Source: Bacteroidota bacterium (GTDB taxonomy: Bacteria; Bacteroidota; Bacteroidia; 2-12-FULL-35-15). From it: DNA of 64,000 nucleotides. The DNA lies in assembly GCA_029237775.1 (NCBI GenBank), contig JAQZBR010000007.1, positions 62,001-126,000 of the forward strand. Direction: 5' to 3'. Position 1 is the first letter of the stretch, and the number at the start of each line of letters is the position of its first letter. The position numbers were made by a program, and so were the translations under genes. A model generated the notes under the pieces. It saw only the letters and a program-made list of their open reading frames with translations, was not told where the DNA came from and searched no databases. This document shows, one piece after another, positions 1 to 40,807 of this stretch.

Positions 1-1317
1 GCATTCCATACCCTCGGCTGTAAGCTGAATTTTTCTGAAACGAGCACTATCGCGCGCCTGTTTCAGGATAACGGTTATGAAAAGGTTGATTTTACACAGC
101 CTTCGGATGTCTATGTCATAAACACATGCTCTGTCACGGCAAATGCAGATAAAGAATGTAAGCAGATCGTAAAATCAGCGTTAAATGTCTCTCCGGATGC
201 ATATGTTGTGGTGGTTGGATGTTATGCGCAGTTAAAGCCGGAGGAGATCGCAAACATTGAGGGTGTTGATCTTGTTCTCGGTGCTTCTGAAAAGTTTAAG
301 CTTCTCAACTACCTGAATGATCTTAGTAAAAAGTCAAAAGCAGAGATTTACAGCTGCGAGATCGAAGAAGCAAACTTCTTTGTGGATTCTTATTCGTTTG
401 GCGACCGCACACGCGTTTTTCTTAAGGTTCAGGATGGTTGCGACTATAATTGTTCTTTCTGTACTATCCCTCTCGCGAGAGGAAGCAGTCGCAGCGACAG
501 CATCACCAATGCTGTTAAGAATGCGTATGACATTTCAAAACAGGATGTAAAAGAGATAGTACTGACGGGAGTTAACCTTGGCGATTTCGGTAATAATGCT
601 TCAAAAAAAGGCAATCGCAAACAGGAAACATTTTTAGATCTTGTTAAAGAGTTGGACAAAGTTGAATCTATAGAAAGATTCCGCATTTCATCGATTGAGC
701 CCAATTTACTTAAGAACGAAACAATTGAATTTGTTTCCAAATCCAGAAGCTTCGTTCCGCATTTTCATATTCCGCTTCAATCAGGAAGCAACAAGACCCT
801 AAAAGCAATGCGCAGGCGTTATATGCGTGAGCTCTACACAGATCGCGTTGCGACTATAAAATCACTAATGCCTCATTGCTGCATTGGTGTCGATGTTATA
901 GTTGGCTTTCCGGGAGAAACTGATGAAGATTTTCTCGAGACATATAATTTCCTCAACGAGCTTGACATTTCATACCTGCACGTATTCACCTATTCAGAGC
1001 GCGATAATACCGATGCTATAAGTCTTCCAAACGCTGTTCCTGTCGCGACAAGAAAGAAGAGAAACAAAATGCTTCGTATTCTTTCTGCAAAAAAGCTTCG
1101 GAGCTTTTATGAAAAGCATTTAGGTGAAACACGTACCGTTCTTTTCGAAGGCGACAACAAAGAAGGCTTTATGCATGGGTTTACAGACAATTACATTAAG
1201 GTAAAAACTCCATTCGATGCTTCACTGGTGAATCAGCTAAGAGATGTTAACCTTTTGTCGCTGGATGCTGATGGGTCAGTGCTTGTTGACGTTCTCACTG
1301 AAGTATTTGCCGGCTAA
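1..1317 (+). CDS. mtaB: tRNA threonylcarbamoyladenosine methylthiotransferase MtaB, 5' truncated
   Basis: Radical-SAM methylthiotransferase that adds a methylthio group to t6A37 of tRNA (family knowledge). The frame is open from base 1, so only a few N-terminal codons are missing. The N-terminal UPF0004 domain starts with TLGCKLN, diagnostic of MtaB rather than MiaB, and has further cysteines in NTCSVT and VVGCYAQ. The radical-SAM cluster is CDYNCSFC at about residues 147-154 of the visible protein. The C-terminal stretch, about 60 residues with FEG and YIKV, fits a TRAM domain. The visible length of 438 residues matches the family. An internal ATG at base 208 is not the real start, because conserved cysteines lie before it. 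Confidence 0.95.
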   Translation, partial: AFHTLGCKLNFSETSTIARLFQDNGYEKVDFTQPSDVYVINTCSVTANADKECKQIVKSALNVSPDAYVVVVGCYAQLKPEEIANIEGVDLVLGASEKFKLLNYLNDLSKKSKAEIYSCEIEEANFFVDSYSFGDRTRVFLKVQDGCDYNCSFCTIPLARGSSRSDSITNAVKNAYDISKQDVKEIVLTGVNLGDFGNNASKKGNRKQETFLDLVKELDKVESIERFRISSIEPNLLKNETIEFVSKSRSFVPHFHIPLQSGSNKTLKAMRRRYMRELYTDRVATIKSLMPHCCIGVDVIVGFPGETDEDFLETYNFLNELDISYLHVFTYSERDNTDAISLPNAVPVATRKKRNKMLRILSAKKLRSFYEKHLGETRTVLFEGDNKEGFMHGFTDNYIKVKTPFDASLVNQLRDVNLLSLDADGSVLVDVLTEVFAG

Positions 1318-2292: not shown

Positions 2293-4986
2293 ATGCTTAC
2301 ACGAATCGCCCTCATTAACTCAAAAGGTTACGGCAAAGCCGAAATGAAACTCGACAATTGTGATTCTATCCAGTTGGTGGGACCAAACAACATCGGTAAG
2401 AGTACTTTGATCTATGCACTGAACTTCCTTTTCGTTGTTGACGGTCAGAAGATGTCATTCTCCGGCCAGCGTAAAGGTGATAAAGAAACTATCCACCACT
2501 ACTTCCCTACTCACAATAAGAGTTTCCTTGTATTTGAGATCAATAAAATGGGATACTACTGTATTCTTGTAAAACGTAATACTGACGGGGAACTTGAATA
2601 TTACCGTATTGAAAGCGAATATACCGAAGACTACTTTTTCGAAAACGAAGGCGCTCACCAACGCTTATTAAGTTTTGATGAAGTTCTTGAAAGACTGATC
2701 CAGAAAGGAATCATCCACAGCAAGTTCGCGACTAAAACAGACGTGTTCAACGCTGTGTATCATCGCGGGAACAAGAACAACGCTGTAGTTTGGTTAGAAG
2801 ATACTGTTAAGGCTGACGGATTGAGCAATAACTTCTCTAAAGTATACCGCTACCTGATCAACTCAAAGCTCATCACAAATAAAACACTTAAAGAATCTTT
2901 GATCATCGCTGATAACCGCGAAAACGAAGGCTTGAATTTCTCTCAGAAGAATAAAAAAGATATCACAGATCTTCTTCGCATCAATGAAGAGATCAAAAGC
3001 ATTAAGTCGGTACGTACCGATTTCCTTGAGTTCCGTGAACTTGTGAAAATGCACAGCTCAAAAACAACAATTGTTTCTGAATTGCTTTATGCATTTAACA
3101 CTGCTTATACTGCAGCGATCCCGGAACTTGAAATTTCATCTGTTGAACGCGGCCGCCACATCGCAGCAGTTCACAACGAGATCAATGAGATCCTGAAGCC
3201 GAAAGAGCTGAACTACGCTTCTTATATCGGTGAAAAGAATGCAGAGATCAAGAACAAGACAAATTACCTTGCCGAAAAGCAACGTGAACTCGATGAGATC
3301 AATAAATTCGAAAGCATTGATTTCCTTCATGAATCTTTAAAAAATCTTGACAAAGAGCGTAAAGAAATTGAGAATCGCATTACTACAATTGAATCTCAAA
3401 AACTTTCAAGCAAGCACTTAGAGTTCCGTCTTGAAAAAGTAACGGATAAGATCGCTTCGATCGAGAACCAGATCGAAAACTATAACAACTTATTGATCCA
3501 CAAGATCTCTGACGATGAAAAAACAAAGCAGTTATTAAATGCTATTTTATCAGAGCAGGTTCTTAGCTTACCAAGCAAGCAGATCAAGAAACAGATCAAA
3601 AAAGCATCAGATAAGCTGATGAATATTTTTGACGGTGAGATCGATATCACAAAAGGACTTGAAATGACTGAATTCAAATCTGTAAAGGAATTGAAGGAAG
3701 AACTAAAAGTTCATTTGTTAGAGAAAAAACAAACTGAAGAGCTTTTAAAAACGGTTGTCGATAAGGAAAAAACAGATTTCAAATTAAAGAGCATTCTTGG
3801 TGAGATCGAAGTGATCAAAGAAAAGATCAAAGGAATTGAAACCAAACCACAGCTTGAAAGACAAATCAAAGGAATTGTTGAGGAGATCAAGAATTTCAAT
3901 GATGACAAAAAAGATCTGGAGAGCCACTTAAATGAACTTGTAAAAGAGATCGCTTCCAAGCAGATCATGCTTGACAAGCTTAATGAGGAAAAGCGTAACC
4001 TAGAGCTTCGCGTTAAGGAACTGAAGGACCGCAAAATGGAAATGGAGGGAATTGACGTTGAGCCTCAGGAATATGAGACCAACGATAATCTCGATTATAT
4101 TTACTCGAAAATCCAGATCCACCAGAAAGATCGTCACGACTTAAAAACAAACAAAGACCTTACTTTCGAAAACCTTAAATACCGCTTGCGCAGCAGCATC
4201 GCTGACGAAGTGGAGTTTATAAAATTCGTTGAAGAGGAGATTGCTTGTTTATCTGACAAGGAAAGAAGTATTGATGGTTTATTACAAAGCATCTCTACAC
4301 AGTTTGCGAATCCCGCATTCACTTTATTGAAGCGTTACGAAGAGTTCAAGCAGTTCGTCTACAATAAATTCAACACGAAACTTGCGACAACACGTATATC
4401 TAACATCGAATCATTAAAGATCGATCTGATCGATAATGAAAGGATTATCGGAGAATTGAAGCAGATCAGCTCGATCCAGGAGTTTAATGGACAAATGAGC
4501 TTTGATTTTGACCAGTCGGAGAACTTAAAGACCCTTAACACATATTTAGATAGCGGTAAGAAAGTTCATTTCGATGAGTTATTCAACATCGAATTATTGC
4601 TTGAGATCAAAGGAACTGAAAAGCGCGTGGATCTTGCAAATCAGGTTGAATCGGACGGTACCGACAGGATGATCCGTCTCGTGATCATCATGGCGATCAT
4701 CAACCGTTTAGCGATCACTGATGAGCAGAATAAGATCACGTTGTTTATCGATGAGGTTGCAACGATCGATAAGCAAAATCGTCCCGAGCTTGTGAAGTTC
4801 TGCAACGCACACAACTTCATTCCGATCTTCGCTGCACCGGATGCAGTGGAAGGTTTCAACAAATACTATTTCATCTACCCTTCAAAAGGCAAGATCAATA
4901 TCAACGAAAAGCAGAATGCAGTAATTGTTGAGAGAAACGGTACAATTGAAAAAGCCGGAAAGAAAAACGCAAAGGACCTGAACTAA
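2293..4986 (+). CDS. SMC-like coiled-coil ATPase, MksB/JetC-type candidate
   Basis: 897 residues. The N-terminal P-loop is GPNNIGKST at residues 30-38. A long charged, heptad-rich helical region covers roughly 270-720. The C-terminal head has a degenerate ABC signature (SDGT at 787-790, then a hydrophobic helix) and Walker B ITLFIDE with D820 and E821. This head-coil-head plan is that of SMC/Rad50-type ATPases. The protein is much shorter than MukB. A less coiled part near 400-475 could be a small hinge. It leads a tight operon with a kleisin-like and a KITE-like gene, which points to an MksBEF/Wadjet-type complex acting on DNA topology or plasmids. No CxxC zinc hook is seen, which argues against Rad50. 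The family is inferred from motifs and gene order, not from a search. Confidence 0.7.
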   Translation: MLTRIALINSKGYGKAEMKLDNCDSIQLVGPNNIGKSTLIYALNFLFVVDGQKMSFSGQRKGDKETIHHYFPTHNKSFLVFEINKMGYYCILVKRNTDGELEYYRIESEYTEDYFFENEGAHQRLLSFDEVLERLIQKGIIHSKFATKTDVFNAVYHRGNKNNAVVWLEDTVKADGLSNNFSKVYRYLINSKLITNKTLKESLIIADNRENEGLNFSQKNKKDITDLLRINEEIKSIKSVRTDFLEFRELVKMHSSKTTIVSELLYAFNTAYTAAIPELEISSVERGRHIAAVHNEINEILKPKELNYASYIGEKNAEIKNKTNYLAEKQRELDEINKFESIDFLHESLKNLDKERKEIENRITTIESQKLSSKHLEFRLEKVTDKIASIENQIENYNNLLIHKISDDEKTKQLLNAILSEQVLSLPSKQIKKQIKKASDKLMNIFDGEIDITKGLEMTEFKSVKELKEELKVHLLEKKQTEELLKTVVDKEKTDFKLKSILGEIEVIKEKIKGIETKPQLERQIKGIVEEIKNFNDDKKDLESHLNELVKEIASKQIMLDKLNEEKRNLELRVKELKDRKMEMEGIDVEPQEYETNDNLDYIYSKIQIHQKDRHDLKTNKDLTFENLKYRLRSSIADEVEFIKFVEEEIACLSDKERSIDGLLQSISTQFANPAFTLLKRYEEFKQFVYNKFNTKLATTRISNIESLKIDLIDNERIIGELKQISSIQEFNGQMSFDFDQSENLKTLNTYLDSGKKVHFDELFNIELLLEIKGTEKRVDLANQVESDGTDRMIRLVIIMAIINRLAITDEQNKITLFIDEVATIDKQNRPELVKFCNAHNFIPIFAAPDAVEGFNKYYFIYPSKGKININEKQNAVIVERNGTIEKAGKKNAKDLN

Positions 4987-5004
4987 GTTTAACATCATAA
5001 TAAC

Positions 5005-6219
5005 ATGAAGGCAGAACCAAAAACAATTCTCCGCTTTTTAGTTGAACACTATGATGTGATCGCTGAATTGTTTGAGACTCAGAAGAACGATGGAATCATC
5101 GCTTACGAGGTGCTGAACAGCATTATTGCAAAGCATGAGCATGATATCAAATCGCAGCTGATAGAATATAAGATCTTAAGTCCGGTTAACGATAATTACG
5201 AGATCCGCACGGTATATTATAACCTGATTGAATTCATCTTAAGTGAGTTCAAGCCGATGCTTCCTGAAACGATTGAAAAATATCATACTTCAGTGGCAGA
5301 ATTATTCCGTAAGATCCGTGAGAACATCAATGGCGATAAGGTAACGCTAAGCCAGCGCTTAAATGATATTGCGATCGAGATCCGTTCATTCTACGAAATG
5401 GTTGAACGCAATACTCAAAGCTTGTTGACTGAAACCCGCGAATTAAAAGCAAATGTAAAGAAGATCGATTACCGTGAAAAGATCGTTCGCGCATCGAGAT
5501 GGATCGATGAATATATCATTCCTCTGAACAAGATCCTTGATATCAATCACTCTTCTTCAATGGCTAACAAGCTTTATGAGATCTCTGAATTTTCAAACAA
5601 ATATCGTTTGAACTTCGATGATGAAGGAGCGCGTGTTCAGTTTGAAAAGCTTTATTTTCAGCTGATCCAGGTGAATGACAATTTACTTCGCCAGTCGAAA
5701 ATTTTGACAAATGAATTATTGCCTTTAATTGAACGTATCCGTACGGAGTCGATCATCCTGACAGGCTGGATCACATTCATGAAGAACCCTTACAAGCGTA
5801 AAGTTCCTAAGTTGTTAAAGCGCAAGGAAGTTTCTGTTTATTCGAACGACACATTCTTCAACGCTGCTGAGATCTTCGAGCAATTCAAAAATGAAACGGA
5901 TGTTTATTTTGAAGAAGAAGAGCATGAATCCGAAAAATGGATCTTCGATAAGGATCATTACACAAAGAAACTTAAAGACAATCTTCCTGTAGAGAACTTC
6001 TTCAGCTGGTGTAATAAAACACTAAAAGAAGATTACAAGAAAGTAGAGATCGAAAAATTCTTTGCACTTACAACGCTTGCCTTTGATGAGGATATAGAGC
6101 GCGAATATGGCGCAAAACCTCAGTTCGACAAGATCAGGATCAATGACCTGACATTAACAGTACCTAAAGTAACGATCAATCAACACACACTAATAGACCC
6201 TAAAGATGGAATTTCCTAA
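5005..6219 (+). CDS. Kleisin-like subunit candidate (MksF/JetA-like)
   Basis: 404-residue soluble protein, 18 bases after the SMC-like gene. The first 80 residues look like a winged-helix domain (TILRFLVEHYDVIAELF, a turn, then YEVLNSII and a strand pair). A long helical middle (about 85-260) is followed by an acidic stretch (EEEEHESEKW, near 305-312). The C-terminal end is strand-rich. Kleisins of MksF/JetA type also bracket helical bundles with winged-helix ends and bridge the two SMC heads. Sequence identity to known MksF cannot be judged by eye. The role rests mainly on position between an SMC ATPase and a small partner gene. It overlaps the next gene by 14 bases, suggesting translational coupling. 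Confidence 0.55.
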   Translation: MKAEPKTILRFLVEHYDVIAELFETQKNDGIIAYEVLNSIIAKHEHDIKSQLIEYKILSPVNDNYEIRTVYYNLIEFILSEFKPMLPETIEKYHTSVAELFRKIRENINGDKVTLSQRLNDIAIEIRSFYEMVERNTQSLLTETRELKANVKKIDYREKIVRASRWIDEYIIPLNKILDINHSSSMANKLYEISEFSNKYRLNFDDEGARVQFEKLYFQLIQVNDNLLRQSKILTNELLPLIERIRTESIILTGWITFMKNPYKRKVPKLLKRKEVSVYSNDTFFNAAEIFEQFKNETDVYFEEEEHESEKWIFDKDHYTKKLKDNLPVENFFSWCNKTLKEDYKKVEIEKFFALTTLAFDEDIEREYGAKPQFDKIRINDLTLTVPKVTINQHTLIDPKDGIS

Positions 6220-6733
6220 TCACCACCGACAAATAGTAGAAGATCTTATGGCAGGCAAATTTGTGCTGCCTCAGGAACGAACATATCAGGTATTAAGAGA
6301 CAACGAGCAATCATATTCGTATTTCTTCAAAGCTTCATTCAACTATGAGCTGAGGCTTACACAGGATTATGCTTATGTTGTGTCAGAAGAGTCGGCAGAG
6401 ATGCTTTCCCGCGACATCTGTATATTCATTGCTTTATTAAGCTATGAGCTTGACCGTGACGGAAAAAACTTCCTTGAGCGTATTCAGTTCAGCGAATTCG
6501 AAATGGAAGAGATCGAGAACTACTTTACAAACTCCTCTTACATCGATCTGATTCTTTCAAACAAACAATTGAAAGATACCGATTCACGCAAAAACTTCAT
6601 CAACACGTTAAACAGAAGAAATATCATTGAAAAAACAGGTGATAATCGTTTTGTATTCACATCAGCCCATAAATTCTTCATGGATTTCGCAAGTGACATT
6701 GTTAAGTATGAGAATGCCGAGAAGGATGAATAA
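6206..6733 (+). CDS. KITE-like small subunit candidate (MksE/JetB-like)
   Basis: 175-residue soluble protein whose ATG lies inside the end of the kleisin-like gene. It is predicted to be mostly helical with two compact halves: one near 20-95 and a second near 100-165 ending in a winged-helix-like FINTLNRRNIIEKTGDNRFVFTS pattern. MksE, JetB and MukE are tandem winged-helix (KITE) proteins that bind the kleisin, and size and position match. No fourth gene of JetD/MksG (toprim nuclease) type follows. The operon closes with a hairpin terminator at 6776-6810, so the set is complete with three genes. Assignment is inference from architecture. Confidence 0.55.
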   Translation: MEFPNHHRQIVEDLMAGKFVLPQERTYQVLRDNEQSYSYFFKASFNYELRLTQDYAYVVSEESAEMLSRDICIFIALLSYELDRDGKNFLERIQFSEFEMEEIENYFTNSSYIDLILSNKQLKDTDSRKNFINTLNRRNIIEKTGDNRFVFTSAHKFFMDFASDIVKYENAEKDE

Positions 6734-6775: not shown

Positions 6776-6810
6776 AAAATAAGAATGGGGCTTTGCCCCT
6801 TTTTTATTTT
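6776..6810 (+). terminator. Rho-independent terminator of the SMC operon
   Basis: GGGGC-TTT-GCCCC core stem, extended outward by A-rich and T-rich arms (16 base pairs with two mismatches), followed by TTTTTTATTTT. It lies 43 bases after the last gene. Confidence 0.85.
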
Positions 6811-6902: not shown

Positions 6903-8060
6903 ATGTATCCATCATTATATTACGCCTTTAAAGATCTTTTCAATATCGATCTGCCATTCCTTAAAATGATCCAGATGTTTGGATTTTTTGTGGCAGTCGC
7001 CTTTATTTATGCAGCATACGTCTGGACTAAAGAACTAAAGCGCAAGGAGGAAGATGGATTAATTGGCACAACAACTCAGAAAATACTTAAAGGACAAAAA
7101 GCAACAACGAACGAGCTTGTCACTGCGGGGATCATTGGGTTCATATTAGGTTTCAAGCTTCTTTACATAGCCTTTAACTTTTCAGCTTTCCTGGAAGATA
7201 CTCAGGGATTCATTTTATCTACACAAGGAAATTTACTTGGTGGTATTTTATGTGCTGCTGCGTTCATCTATTTTAAATACAAAGAAAAAGAAAAGACAAG
7301 ATTAGATGAACCTGTTTGGGAACAGGAAATTATTCATCCATATCAGCAGGTTGGTAACCTCACTTTAATTGCAGCATTTGCAGGGATTCTGGGAGCCAAG
7401 ATATTTCATAATCTCGAAAACTGGGACGAATTTATGGCTGATCCAATCGAGGCATTAATGTCGTTCAGCGGATTAACAATGTACGGAGGATTGATCCTGG
7501 CATCAGTTGCTTGTATCTGGTACGGAACAAAACAAGGAATAAAAGTGACTCATCTTATCGATTCAGCAGCTCCCTCTTTAATGTTAGGTTATGGAATTGG
7601 CCGGATCGGCTGTCATGTTTCAGGAGATGGTGACTGGGGAATCCCTAGTTTAAACCCAAAGCCTTTCAACTGGATGCCGGACTGGATGTGGAGTTATGAT
7701 TATCCGCACAATGTAGTAAGTGAAGGAGTTCCTTTACCGGGATGCGAAGGAAGATTCTGTACTCACCTTGACCCGTCTGTTTATCCGACCGCTTTTTATG
7801 AAGTGGTAATGTGCATCAGTTTATTTTTCGTTATCTGGGCGATCCGCAAACGTATTACTACTCCGGGAGTATTATTTTCAATTTATCTTATCTTTAATGG
7901 AGTTGAACGTTTTTTCATTGAGAAGATCCGCGTAAATACTTTATATCATGTAAATGGATTTGGATTCACTCAGGCTGAGCTGATCTCTACATTGTTATTC
8001 TTTACAGGAGTTTTCGGGATCTGGTATTTTAGGAGGAAGAATGTAGTTCGGAGTGTTTAG
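6903..8060 (+). CDS. lgt: Prolipoprotein diacylglyceryl transferase
   Basis: Inner-membrane enzyme that moves diacylglyceryl from phosphatidylglycerol to the lipobox cysteine of prolipoproteins (family knowledge). The Lgt signature is visible as GYGIGRIGCHVSGDGDWG at about 229-246, followed by YPTAFYE and a C-terminal membrane segment pattern typical of the family. About seven hydrophobic segments are present. At 385 residues it is longer than the usual 260-300, with extra sequence in loops (about 110-145 and 250-290), as seen in other long Bacteroidota versions. It appears to stand alone, being preceded by the SMC operon terminator. Lipoproteins encoded here (16591, 33192) are possible substrates. 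Confidence 0.9.
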   Translation: MYPSLYYAFKDLFNIDLPFLKMIQMFGFFVAVAFIYAAYVWTKELKRKEEDGLIGTTTQKILKGQKATTNELVTAGIIGFILGFKLLYIAFNFSAFLEDTQGFILSTQGNLLGGILCAAAFIYFKYKEKEKTRLDEPVWEQEIIHPYQQVGNLTLIAAFAGILGAKIFHNLENWDEFMADPIEALMSFSGLTMYGGLILASVACIWYGTKQGIKVTHLIDSAAPSLMLGYGIGRIGCHVSGDGDWGIPSLNPKPFNWMPDWMWSYDYPHNVVSEGVPLPGCEGRFCTHLDPSVYPTAFYEVVMCISLFFVIWAIRKRITTPGVLFSIYLIFNGVERFFIEKIRVNTLYHVNGFGFTQAELISTLLFFTGVFGIWYFRRKNVVRSV

Positions 8061-38101: not shown

Positions 38102-40807
38102 TTACTCTGTTAATGCTTTTTGTTTTTTGAATCCGAAATCAAGAATTCTGTCAATAAAATCATAAGGCTTATACCCGTTGATGGCAGTCTGATGAAAGAT
38201 GCAAGTTGCCGGGGTCATGCCGGGCAATGAATTCACCTCAATAAAAACGACTTCAACTTTATCGGGATTGTAGATCCGGACAAATGCATCGATACGACAA
38301 TAACCATTAACATTAAGAACTTTCGCTGCAGCTCCAAGGGTTTCTTTCACCTTATCGGATATTTTCTGGCGGTCCTCCGGCATTGGTGAATACCTTGCAG
38401 GTGTTATATTTTGGCCTTGCCCGGCTAAAAATTTTTCCTCAAGTGAAAGCACTTCACCTTCACTCAATGCTTCTGAGGCTTCAAAGACTTCATACATCAC
38501 TTTTCCATCAGGTTCATACTTTGTGAGCATTCCACCCGTTATTTCAAGGAAGTGAAAAGCATCGCGTTTACTGATCAGCTCCTCCACAAGAATGACGCGC
38601 TTTTGCGGAAATTCCTCTTTTTCTTTTATATGAAGTAAATTAGCAGAAGCCTGATCCAACTCTTCTTTCTTACGGAATATCAAAGTTGCAAAAGCTTCAA
38701 ACTCTTCAGGAGTTTTGATCTTTCTTACCGCTGAACTGCAACCATCATCCACAGGCTTCGCTATGAAAGGAAAGTGTATCTTATTTTCAATGGTTTTGAG
38801 TATTGCTTTTTTGTCTGCATGCCATTCCTCTTCTGTGACTAATAAGTGTTCGGCAATTAAAAATCCATTCTCTTTTAACAATTCATTTGTGCGGTACTTG
38901 TCAATTGTGATCTGCGAACTATCAACCCCCGATCCGTTATATGGCAAGCCAACACTCTCCAGTTCAGCCTGCACTGCACCATCTTCGCCCGGCCTTCCGT
39001 GTAAAGCAATAAAGACACCTTCCACCATTCGGGAGAGGTCCTCGTAACTTATCCGTTTAGGTTTTGCAAGGCTTTCAGAACTGGAATATTTTGAAGTGAT
39101 ATCAGAACATTCTGAAATGATCTGTTTTATCATTTCATGGATCTTGTAATTATCTATTTTTTCTTTAATGTCATCCGCATTGTCTTTCAAAAGAATATTA
39201 ACAGGGATCTGATACAGGATATGCTCTTTGTCGCTGCCGGTCAGAAATACCGGTATAGGCTCATATTTAGACGATGAAGCGAGCTTCTCATAAATATTCC
39301 TTCCGCTCTCGACAGAAATATGTCTTTCAGAAGAGTATCCTCCGAGAATTACCGCCACTTTTATTTTCTTAGCTGTAGATTCCTTTTCCTGCTTAATTGA
39401 TGCATCAAGCGTTTCAAGCAACATATCGAACTTGCCGCTGTTCCTGCTTCCGGTGATACGTTGCGACAAAGACGTTCTGATTATGTAGGTTAAAAACTGT
39501 GAAGGGTTCAAACCGATTTCCGCGGCCTGATGAAAGAAAAATGACGAAGGCATCATACCTGAAGTAGTGTTTGGATCATTAAGAAAGATCTTTCCGTCTT
39601 TTGAAAGAAAGCCATCGATCCTTGCATATACATCAAAACTTAAGGCCTTGAACAAACGCTCACATTCTCTCCGGATCATTTGTATTTGCTCATTCGGGAG
39701 ATCTATTGGAGTGATCTTTCTCGAGAGCCCCGGTAGATATTTTGAGCGATAATCGAAAAGCTCTTTTCCTTTTCTGATCTCAGTCGGTGGCAATGCAACG
39801 GGATTGCCATCCTCTTTTTGTGCAACAATGCATGAAAACTCTTTCCCCTCAATAAAACCTTCAATAAGCACCTTGCTTTCACCATCAACTGCTGCAAGGA
39901 TCACTCCTTCATTTTCTGTTTTAAAAACGTGATCAAGATGAGCTATAAGATCGGCCGGATGAAAAACAGCTTCTTTACTTTTTAATTTGTCACTTATAAC
40001 CAGCAAAGGCATTCCGATTCCTTCACGGATATCGGCCAATGAGCGTACGAAGCTGATTTTCTGGTCATCTTTCATTGCATTCCATTCAGTTGCATCCTGC
40101 CATTTTGTAAAGAACGCTTTTTCTATCGCTTCCATCAGTGCAAACTTATCTTCTTTATGAAGAATGCTAATCCCTATGGAAGAACCTTGATTAGCGGGCT
40201 TCACGACCAATGGAAAACCAATTTCTGAACCGGCCCTTTCAAAAACATTTTTGCAATTACCACTGATATAATCATCTCTGTCGACAGTAAAAAATTTCGG
40301 ACTGTTAAAGCCGGCATTTACCATGAGCTGCTTCTGTATTCCTTTATCAATACCAATTGCAGACGGCAGTATTCCTGAACCGGAATATGGGATATTAAGA
40401 TATTCACACAAGCCCTGGATCTTACCATCCTCCCCAAAAGGGCCATGCAAGCATAAAAATGCAAAATCGAAATGCTGCTTAAGATCCTCGGGCGCTATCT
40501 TACTGCCAATTTTATTGATCATCGCAAGCTGTTGTTCGGATGATAAATTACCTATCTGCTCTGCATAGACCTGAAAATCCCCGTTCTTTTCAGGAATAAA
40601 CTCAGCAGGAGGATAAAAGTCGCGAACACTTCCTTTGTAAACATACTCCCAGTTAAGAAGCACAAAGTTTCCAAAGCTGTCTACGAAAACCGGAACAGCT
40701 TCAAACAATGATTTATTCAGATTATCATAAACTGTTCTTCCTCCCGCAAAAGATATTTCGCGCTCTTTGGAGAAACCTCCGAAAATTATTCCTACTCTGA
40801 TCTTCAT
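38102..40807 (-). CDS. ddl: Tandem D-alanine--D-alanine ligase fusion (two Ddl units)
   Basis: 901 residues, about twice a normal Ddl. Unit 1 (about 1-455) has EREIS with Glu15, ATP-loop KPANQGSSIG (203-212), ALPPTEI, FDYRSKYLPG, ARIDGF and the metal site as NDPNTTSGM (Asp411, Asn413). It also has an insert of about 80 residues near 218-305. Unit 2 (about 480-901) has GGYSSERHIS, a modified ATP-loop KPVDDGCSSAV, a diverged lid region (FHFLEITGG, EEKFLAGQGQN), CRIDAF and a classical metal site FIEVNSLPGMTP (Glu857, Asn859). Ddl joins two D-alanines for peptidoglycan. One unit may be regulatory, or both may be active. No frameshift separates the units. Confidence 0.88.
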   Translation of the reverse strand: MKIRVGIIFGGFSKEREISFAGGRTVYDNLNKSLFEAVPVFVDSFGNFVLLNWEYVYKGSVRDFYPPAEFIPEKNGDFQVYAEQIGNLSSEQQLAMINKIGSKIAPEDLKQHFDFAFLCLHGPFGEDGKIQGLCEYLNIPYSGSGILPSAIGIDKGIQKQLMVNAGFNSPKFFTVDRDDYISGNCKNVFERAGSEIGFPLVVKPANQGSSIGISILHKEDKFALMEAIEKAFFTKWQDATEWNAMKDDQKISFVRSLADIREGIGMPLLVISDKLKSKEAVFHPADLIAHLDHVFKTENEGVILAAVDGESKVLIEGFIEGKEFSCIVAQKEDGNPVALPPTEIRKGKELFDYRSKYLPGLSRKITPIDLPNEQIQMIRRECERLFKALSFDVYARIDGFLSKDGKIFLNDPNTTSGMMPSSFFFHQAAEIGLNPSQFLTYIIRTSLSQRITGSRNSGKFDMLLETLDASIKQEKESTAKKIKVAVILGGYSSERHISVESGRNIYEKLASSSKYEPIPVFLTGSDKEHILYQIPVNILLKDNADDIKEKIDNYKIHEMIKQIISECSDITSKYSSSESLAKPKRISYEDLSRMVEGVFIALHGRPGEDGAVQAELESVGLPYNGSGVDSSQITIDKYRTNELLKENGFLIAEHLLVTEEEWHADKKAILKTIENKIHFPFIAKPVDDGCSSAVRKIKTPEEFEAFATLIFRKKEELDQASANLLHIKEKEEFPQKRVILVEELISKRDAFHFLEITGGMLTKYEPDGKVMYEVFEASEALSEGEVLSLEEKFLAGQGQNITPARYSPMPEDRQKISDKVKETLGAAAKVLNVNGYCRIDAFVRIYNPDKVEVVFIEVNSLPGMTPATCIFHQTAINGYKPYDFIDRILDFGFKKQKALTE

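Follow-up and report, generated by a model that had tools for sequence, protein, structure and literature searches.

A permuted, nuclease-free MksBEF operon as a likely chromosomal condensin in a Bacteroidia genus without ScpA

A Hi-C study of 2023 described two gut Bacteroidetes species without a recognisable condensin, which must rely on unidentified SMC complexes (PMC10197239). We describe here a three-gene operon in a 64,000-nucleotide stretch of a Bacteroidota genome of the class Bacteroidia (contig JAQZBR010000007.1 of assembly GCA_029237775.1, positions 62,001 to 126,000), referred to here as the window. At window positions 2293 to 6733 the operon encodes a structural maintenance of chromosomes (SMC) ATPase, a kleisin and a KITE subunit, and no nuclease. 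What does such a complex do in a genome without Smc-ScpAB? By profile and fold, the operon is an SMC-kleisin-KITE system of the MukBEF/MksBEF/JetABC class. We consider it likely that it is a nuclease-free MksBEF, related to the four-gene Wadjet systems, that stands in for the missing Smc-ScpAB in compacting and segregating the chromosome, and that it was probably derived from a four-gene Wadjet.

The elements of the operon are the following.

2293 to 4986, forward strand: SMC ATPase, MksB/JetC-like, 897 residues (AlphaFold model, pLDDT 77.5, with MukB and then JetC folds)
2380 to 2406, forward strand: Walker A motif GPNNIGKST, residues 30-38 (N32, N33, G35 and K36 invariant in 21 homologues)
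4651 to 4665, forward strand: degenerate ABC signature SDGTD, residues 787-791 (Q784, S787, G789 and T790 invariant)
4741 to 4755, forward strand: Walker B motif LFIDE, residues 817-821 (D820 and E821 invariant)
4987 to 5004, forward strand: SMC-kleisin junction of 18 bp, the slot of a compact JetD gene in accessory relatives (from tabulated gaps)
5005 to 6219, forward strand: kleisin, MksF/JetA/MukF-like, 404 residues (AlphaFold model and fold matches)
5017 to 5205, forward strand: N-terminal winged-helix domain of the kleisin, residues 5-67 (helices, then a two-stranded hairpin, in the model)
5998 to 6183, forward strand: predicted C-terminal helix/strand domain of the kleisin, residues 332-393 (from the model)
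6206 to 6733, forward strand: MksE KITE subunit, 175 residues (Pfam PF21980)
6787 to 6806, forward strand: intrinsic terminator GGGGCTTTGCCCC then TTTTTT, at the operon end

The kleisin and KITE reading frames overlap by 14 bp, and the 18-bp gap before the kleisin holds no open reading frame (ORF). An earlier, sequence-only reading of this DNA had reported the three ORFs with their lengths, gap and overlap, the P-loop and the Walker B motif, all of which are in the sequence as it said, and had closed the set with a terminator, which we find as a GGGGC-TTT-GCCCC hairpin starting at 6787 and followed by TTTTTT. Judged by their conservation, the three ORFs are real genes, because across the genus the proteins are still 71-97% identical although synonymous change is at or near saturation. 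The trio also recurs, in the same order, in several families of the class. The SMC signature reads S-x-G-T where SGGE/Q is usual.

The subunits could be assigned by different kinds of evidence. The KITE matches the Pfam MksE family PF21980 (E = 1.3e-21; 78.1 bits against a cut-off of 27) over residues 6-161, covering model positions 2-161 of 163, and its profile weakly matches MukE in a PDB sequence search (E = 0.24). For the kleisin, an AlphaFold model built from 22 homologues (pLDDT 78.7) has as its top Foldseek match in the PDB chain 8q72_E of the JetABCD complex (E = 1e-4, probability 1.00), which we ourselves assign to JetA from its chain length and the MukF matches; the MukF chains 3rpu_B and 1t98_A come next. 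MukF and JetABC chains are also present in the VIA-align list, but unrelated helical bundles are interleaved with them, and that list alone is therefore not evidence; the Foldseek ranking carries the kleisin claim. By analogy with MukF and JetA, the C-terminal domain of the kleisin would contact the SMC head. The SMC model is closest to MukB (9gm9_A, E = 2.5e-17; also 7nyw_B), followed by the JetC folds 9qe0, 9qxx, 8q72 and 8dk2.

Sequence databases say less. The kleisin matches NCBIfam NF040857 weakly (E = 1e-4; 21 bits, far below the cut-off of 750), PADLOC and NCBIfam leave the operon unnamed, and the PADLOC Jet models match none of the three window proteins. No Muk family is among their Pfam or NCBIfam matches, so that the likeness to MukBEF is one of fold, and PDB searches with the SMC sequence and with a profile of each protein returned noise apart from MukE. 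Nevertheless, the operon combines an MksE KITE, a kleisin of the appropriate architecture whose binding is predicted, and a short-coiled-coil SMC with its motifs, as MksBEF does. These results bear out the class proposed by the sequence-only reading, an SMC/kleisin/KITE condensin of the MksBEF/Wadjet type. The gene order that it had flagged as unusual, SMC-kleisin-KITE (B-F-E, after MksB, MksF and MksE), is genuine and common to the whole family. We regard the F-E-B order found elsewhere as a common trait of MksBEF and not a defining one.

Is the nuclease truly missing? A Wadjet carries a JetD/MksG TOPRIM nuclease in its operon, and this one does not. The genome (4.08 Mb in 12 contigs, 96.6% complete) has no match to the Pfam family JetD_C anywhere. 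A compact-JetD profile, built in this analysis from the nucleases of the family, also has no match in it, nor in eight of nine other genus genomes sampled; in the ninth (G015), its only match lies in a second, accessory copy of the system. The earlier suggestion to look for a distant jetD was thus followed genome-wide, and the claim of a nuclease-free locus stands. Nuclease-free operons also have no conserved extra gene beside them, and because their flanking genes differ between families they do not conceal a conserved fourth gene.

If the complex is not a nuclease-armed Wadjet, how indispensable does it appear to be? Every genus genome of at least 90% completeness, 26 in all, has the SMC gene; completeness is 64-80% in the four where it is missing. 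Two neighbours, which lie outside the complex, mark the locus.

208 to 1317, forward strand: mtaB-like methylthiotransferase, upstream flank (conserved synteny; name from reading the sequence)
6903 to 8060, forward strand: lgt, prolipoprotein diacylglyceryl transferase, downstream flank (Pfam PF01790; conserved synteny)

Most genus members have mtaB on the upstream side and many have lgt on the downstream side, even where SMC identity falls to 73-78%. Moreover, the SMC changes more slowly than this neighbour. Over the same pairs of genomes, the nonsynonymous rate (dN) is 0.05-0.07 for the SMC and 0.17-0.23 for lgt, with the synonymous rate saturated; for the most distant pair (L166) the values are 0.197 and 0.270. 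The amino-acid divergence of the SMC is about one third that of lgt. One genus member, G030, has instead a distant family copy (L224), 51% identical and also nuclease-free, with no mtaB or lgt within the flanks examined. This looks like the replacement of one copy by another, as might be expected if the function is important. The idea that these are genes of a plasmid or phage was considered and rejected: no plasmid record covers as much as half of the SMC, and phage records gave no match. As separate observations, one member of the genus has about 4.5 kb between SMC and kleisin (L160:12670-17206), with two unrelated-looking ORFs of which the larger has 1152 residues, and G015 carries four MksE-type systems (L085 on C31, L068 on C37, L122 on C52 and L088 on C18), which comprise the nuclease-free core operon, a second family copy with JetD, and two F-E-B systems from other lineages.

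The genomes in which the operon is found are poor in Smc-ScpAB. In a profile search, ScpA was found in none of 36 genus genomes and in none of 40 genomes that carry a nuclease-free relative, and no SMC hinge was found in ten genus genomes sampled, including the one studied here. The latter matches neither PF06470 (hinge) nor PF02616 (ScpA), and nothing in it qualifies as Smc-ScpAB. Across a class sample of 295 genomes, ScpA is present in 57 and the Smc hinge in 55, nearly the same genomes. A full-length kleisin of the present type occurs in 36 genomes of the class, of which one has ScpA, compared with 56 of the 259 others (Fisher p = 0.006, with related genomes not independent). Of the 48 named genomes in which this SMC was found, ScpA is present in two, Pontibacter vulgaris and a metagenome-assembled genome (MAG) of Cyclobacteriaceae, and both have a nuclease-bearing form. 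We therefore favor a chromosomal role, because the operon is core, slow-evolving, found in genomes without ScpA and not patchy like defence. Of the two functions that the sequence-only reading had offered, chromosome organization thus gains ground and nuclease-independent plasmid control loses it.

By analogy with MukBEF and JetABC, two MukB-like SMC heads would be bridged by a MukF/JetA-like kleisin that carries the MksE (KITE) subunits, and ATP binding and hydrolysis would drive DNA loop extrusion. Without JetD, the extruded circle would stay uncut, and the long-lived substrate would be the chromosome. Both the loop extrusion and the chromosomal role are inferences.

Where did the nuclease go, or come from? 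Nine loci of the family have an extra gene between SMC and kleisin (L223, L225, L227, L228, L229, L230, L085, L211 and L217). It encodes about 265 residues, usually overlaps both neighbours and is carried sporadically, in Pontibacter, Cyclobacteriaceae, Nonlabens, Mesonia, Arenibacter and the second copy in the genus. Singly, these proteins match JetD_C, DUF7281 or PADLOC JetD1 weakly; aligned, all nine share three invariant elements, an E (VEN/IEN), a DxD (DYD) and FLEQ, and against canonical JetD the alignment gives an hhalign E of 1.6e-4, in which the VEN, DxD and LEQE motifs line up. Judging from this profile match and these motifs, the extra gene is a compact JetD (TOPRIM) nuclease, and its sporadic carriers are presumably plasmid-restricting Wadjets. 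The mks order in C. glutamicum and Pseudomonas is F-E-B-G (PMC10123090), and B-JetD-F-E is a circular permutation of it. By SMC profile, the nearest F-E-B systems outside the family are L061-L073 (41-83 bits); in L061, L062, L063 and L067 the downstream gene is related to the compact nuclease, and the SMCs of L061 and L068 have the same kind of signature as the window SMC, S[DE]GTD. The fourth gene, downstream in L061, L062, L063, L067 and L068, gives matches to DUF7281 (PF23947), to JetD models or to the profile of the compact JetD; DUF7281 itself resembles a TOPRIM/JetD relative that has no name yet.

On a tree of 84 sequences built from SMC and kleisin, operons with the nuclease are spread over five positions, and the core-locus copies of the genus are all nuclease-free. 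In L188, from a MAG, the last 50 or so codons are all that the junction retains of the nuclease gene, and the catalytic TOPRIM part has disappeared; at the DNA level this remnant shares 76% identity with the intact nuclease gene in L211, a close relative (E = 3e-27), and is direct evidence of at least one loss. Short repeated intergenic sequence fills the junctions L188:12653-13082, L191:12653-12893 and L088:5976-6305, in L188 beside the remnant, and such repeats may have mediated nuclease deletion. We take loss, not late gain, to be the main direction of change, which these data settle in part. It is quite possible, though we would stop short of calling it probable, that a branch of a compact, circularly permuted Wadjet (order SMC-JetD-kleisin-KITE) lost its nuclease repeatedly and became the sole condensin of whole Bacteroidota lineages without Smc-ScpAB.

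Several results weigh against the view of the operon as a Wadjet-derived condensin. First, 157 of the 295 class genomes match neither MksE nor ScpA profiles. The missing Smc-ScpAB is therefore not diagnostic, an unrecognised condensin could exist here too, and, with about half of the class in this position, the step from the absence of ScpA to the operon being the condensin is weakened. Second, the kleisin profile gives no significant alignment with canonical JetA (hhalign E = 0.19), so the link between MksF and JetA is one of fold; of the profile checks proposed earlier, the KITE proved to be MksE and the kleisin comparison gave nothing significant. The predicted template modelling scores of the kleisin and SMC models are also modest (0.43 and 0.51). 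Third, L211 and L217 share 60% identity in their SMCs but only 30% in their nucleases. A strictly vertical descent of the nuclease is thus unsupported for this pair, and some nucleases may have been swapped or gained instead of being inherited. Finally, the operon could act on plasmids without a nuclease.

The alternative that survives best is that the three-gene, nuclease-free form is ancestral and that mobile members gained JetD several times in the same slot. A condensin role would be compatible with this. Five gains are fewer changes on the tree, counted by eye, than about a dozen losses, and the nucleases of L211 and L217 are far more diverged than their SMCs. However, every JetD gene occupies exactly the same slot, in most cases with reading frames that overlap, and in other pairs the identity of the nucleases largely follows that of the SMCs (a Pearson coefficient of 0.90, which close pairs drive). 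Related compact nucleases also occur in F-E-B-X systems outside the family, and L188 is a clear loss. We regard repeated gain as unlikely, though it deserves serious consideration.

A poorer candidate is that the operon still defends against plasmids or phages, either independently of a nuclease, by sequestering or compacting circular DNA, or by borrowing an unrelated host nuclease. The family does hold JetD-bearing members that are patchy and apparently mobile, such as L227-L230 from different Flavobacteriaceae, with SMCs 83-97% identical, and one genus member with a second, JetD-bearing copy also has other MksE-type systems. Yet defence genes are typically patchy and fast-evolving, whereas this operon occupies a largely conserved locus in all well-assembled genomes of the genus, its SMC evolves more slowly than lgt, and nuclease-free operons of different families have no conserved extra gene alongside. 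A defensive function is thus rather improbable. The reading of the trio as a divergent Smc/Rad50-like repair ATPase with two accessory proteins, to which the generic, below-cut-off AAA_29 and AAA_21 matches that are all Pfam finds on the SMC would correspond, is strongly disfavoured by the significant MksE match, the JetA/MukF-type kleisin fold and the rank of MukB above Rad50 for the SMC.

The operon is a concrete candidate condensin that can be tested in some lineages, though not in Bacteroides itself. Nuclease-bearing, nuclease-free and remnant relatives can be compared directly, which is relevant to the proposed origin of MksBEF from Wadjet (PMC10586767). Should the permuted Wadjet have lost its nuclease as described, part of the missing Bacteroidota condensins would be supplied, and the conversion of SMC complexes from defence to housekeeping would be visible with the nuclease fossil in place.

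Elsewhere in the window, positions 13441-63590 appear by eye to be a surface-polysaccharide-rich stretch with many glycosyltransferase-like genes. Within it, also by eye, are three asparagine-synthase-like genes (13441, 49996 and 56861) and uvrA (22672). At 38102-40807, on the reverse strand, a protein of 901 residues appears by eye to consist of two tandem D-alanine--D-alanine ligase-type halves.

How does the operon compare with known systems? With MukBEF it shares SMC and kleisin folds near MukB and MukF and a KITE profile that weakly matches MukE; it differs in its short SMC (897 residues) and in showing no MukB or MukF similarity in the PDB sequence search. Smc-ScpAB is a functional analogue, likewise a tripartite SMC-kleisin-KITE condensin, whose hinge family and ScpA are unmatched in this genome. 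Wadjet (JetABCD, MksBEFG) has the same classes of subunit, and the sister operons carry a compact TOPRIM nuclease homologous to JetD, of about 265 residues compared with about 390 for a typical JetD with DUF3322 and JetD_C; the operon here has no nuclease, and its order is circularly permuted. The closest parallel in content is MksBEF of P. aeruginosa, also SMC, kleisin and KITE without a nuclease, for which a chromosome role is established and descent from Wadjet through loss of JetD has been suggested (PMC10586767). P. aeruginosa has Smc-ScpAB besides MksBEF (PMC7485682, PMC4255302); unlike it, the genus here has no ScpA, and its order is B-F-E as opposed to the F-E-B-G of C. glutamicum and Pseudomonas mks (PMC10123090). 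Nuclease-free MksBEF is therefore already known from Pseudomonas, and what is new is a permuted family with and without its nuclease, a remnant of that nuclease, and the core status of the nuclease-free form in a genus that lacks ScpA.
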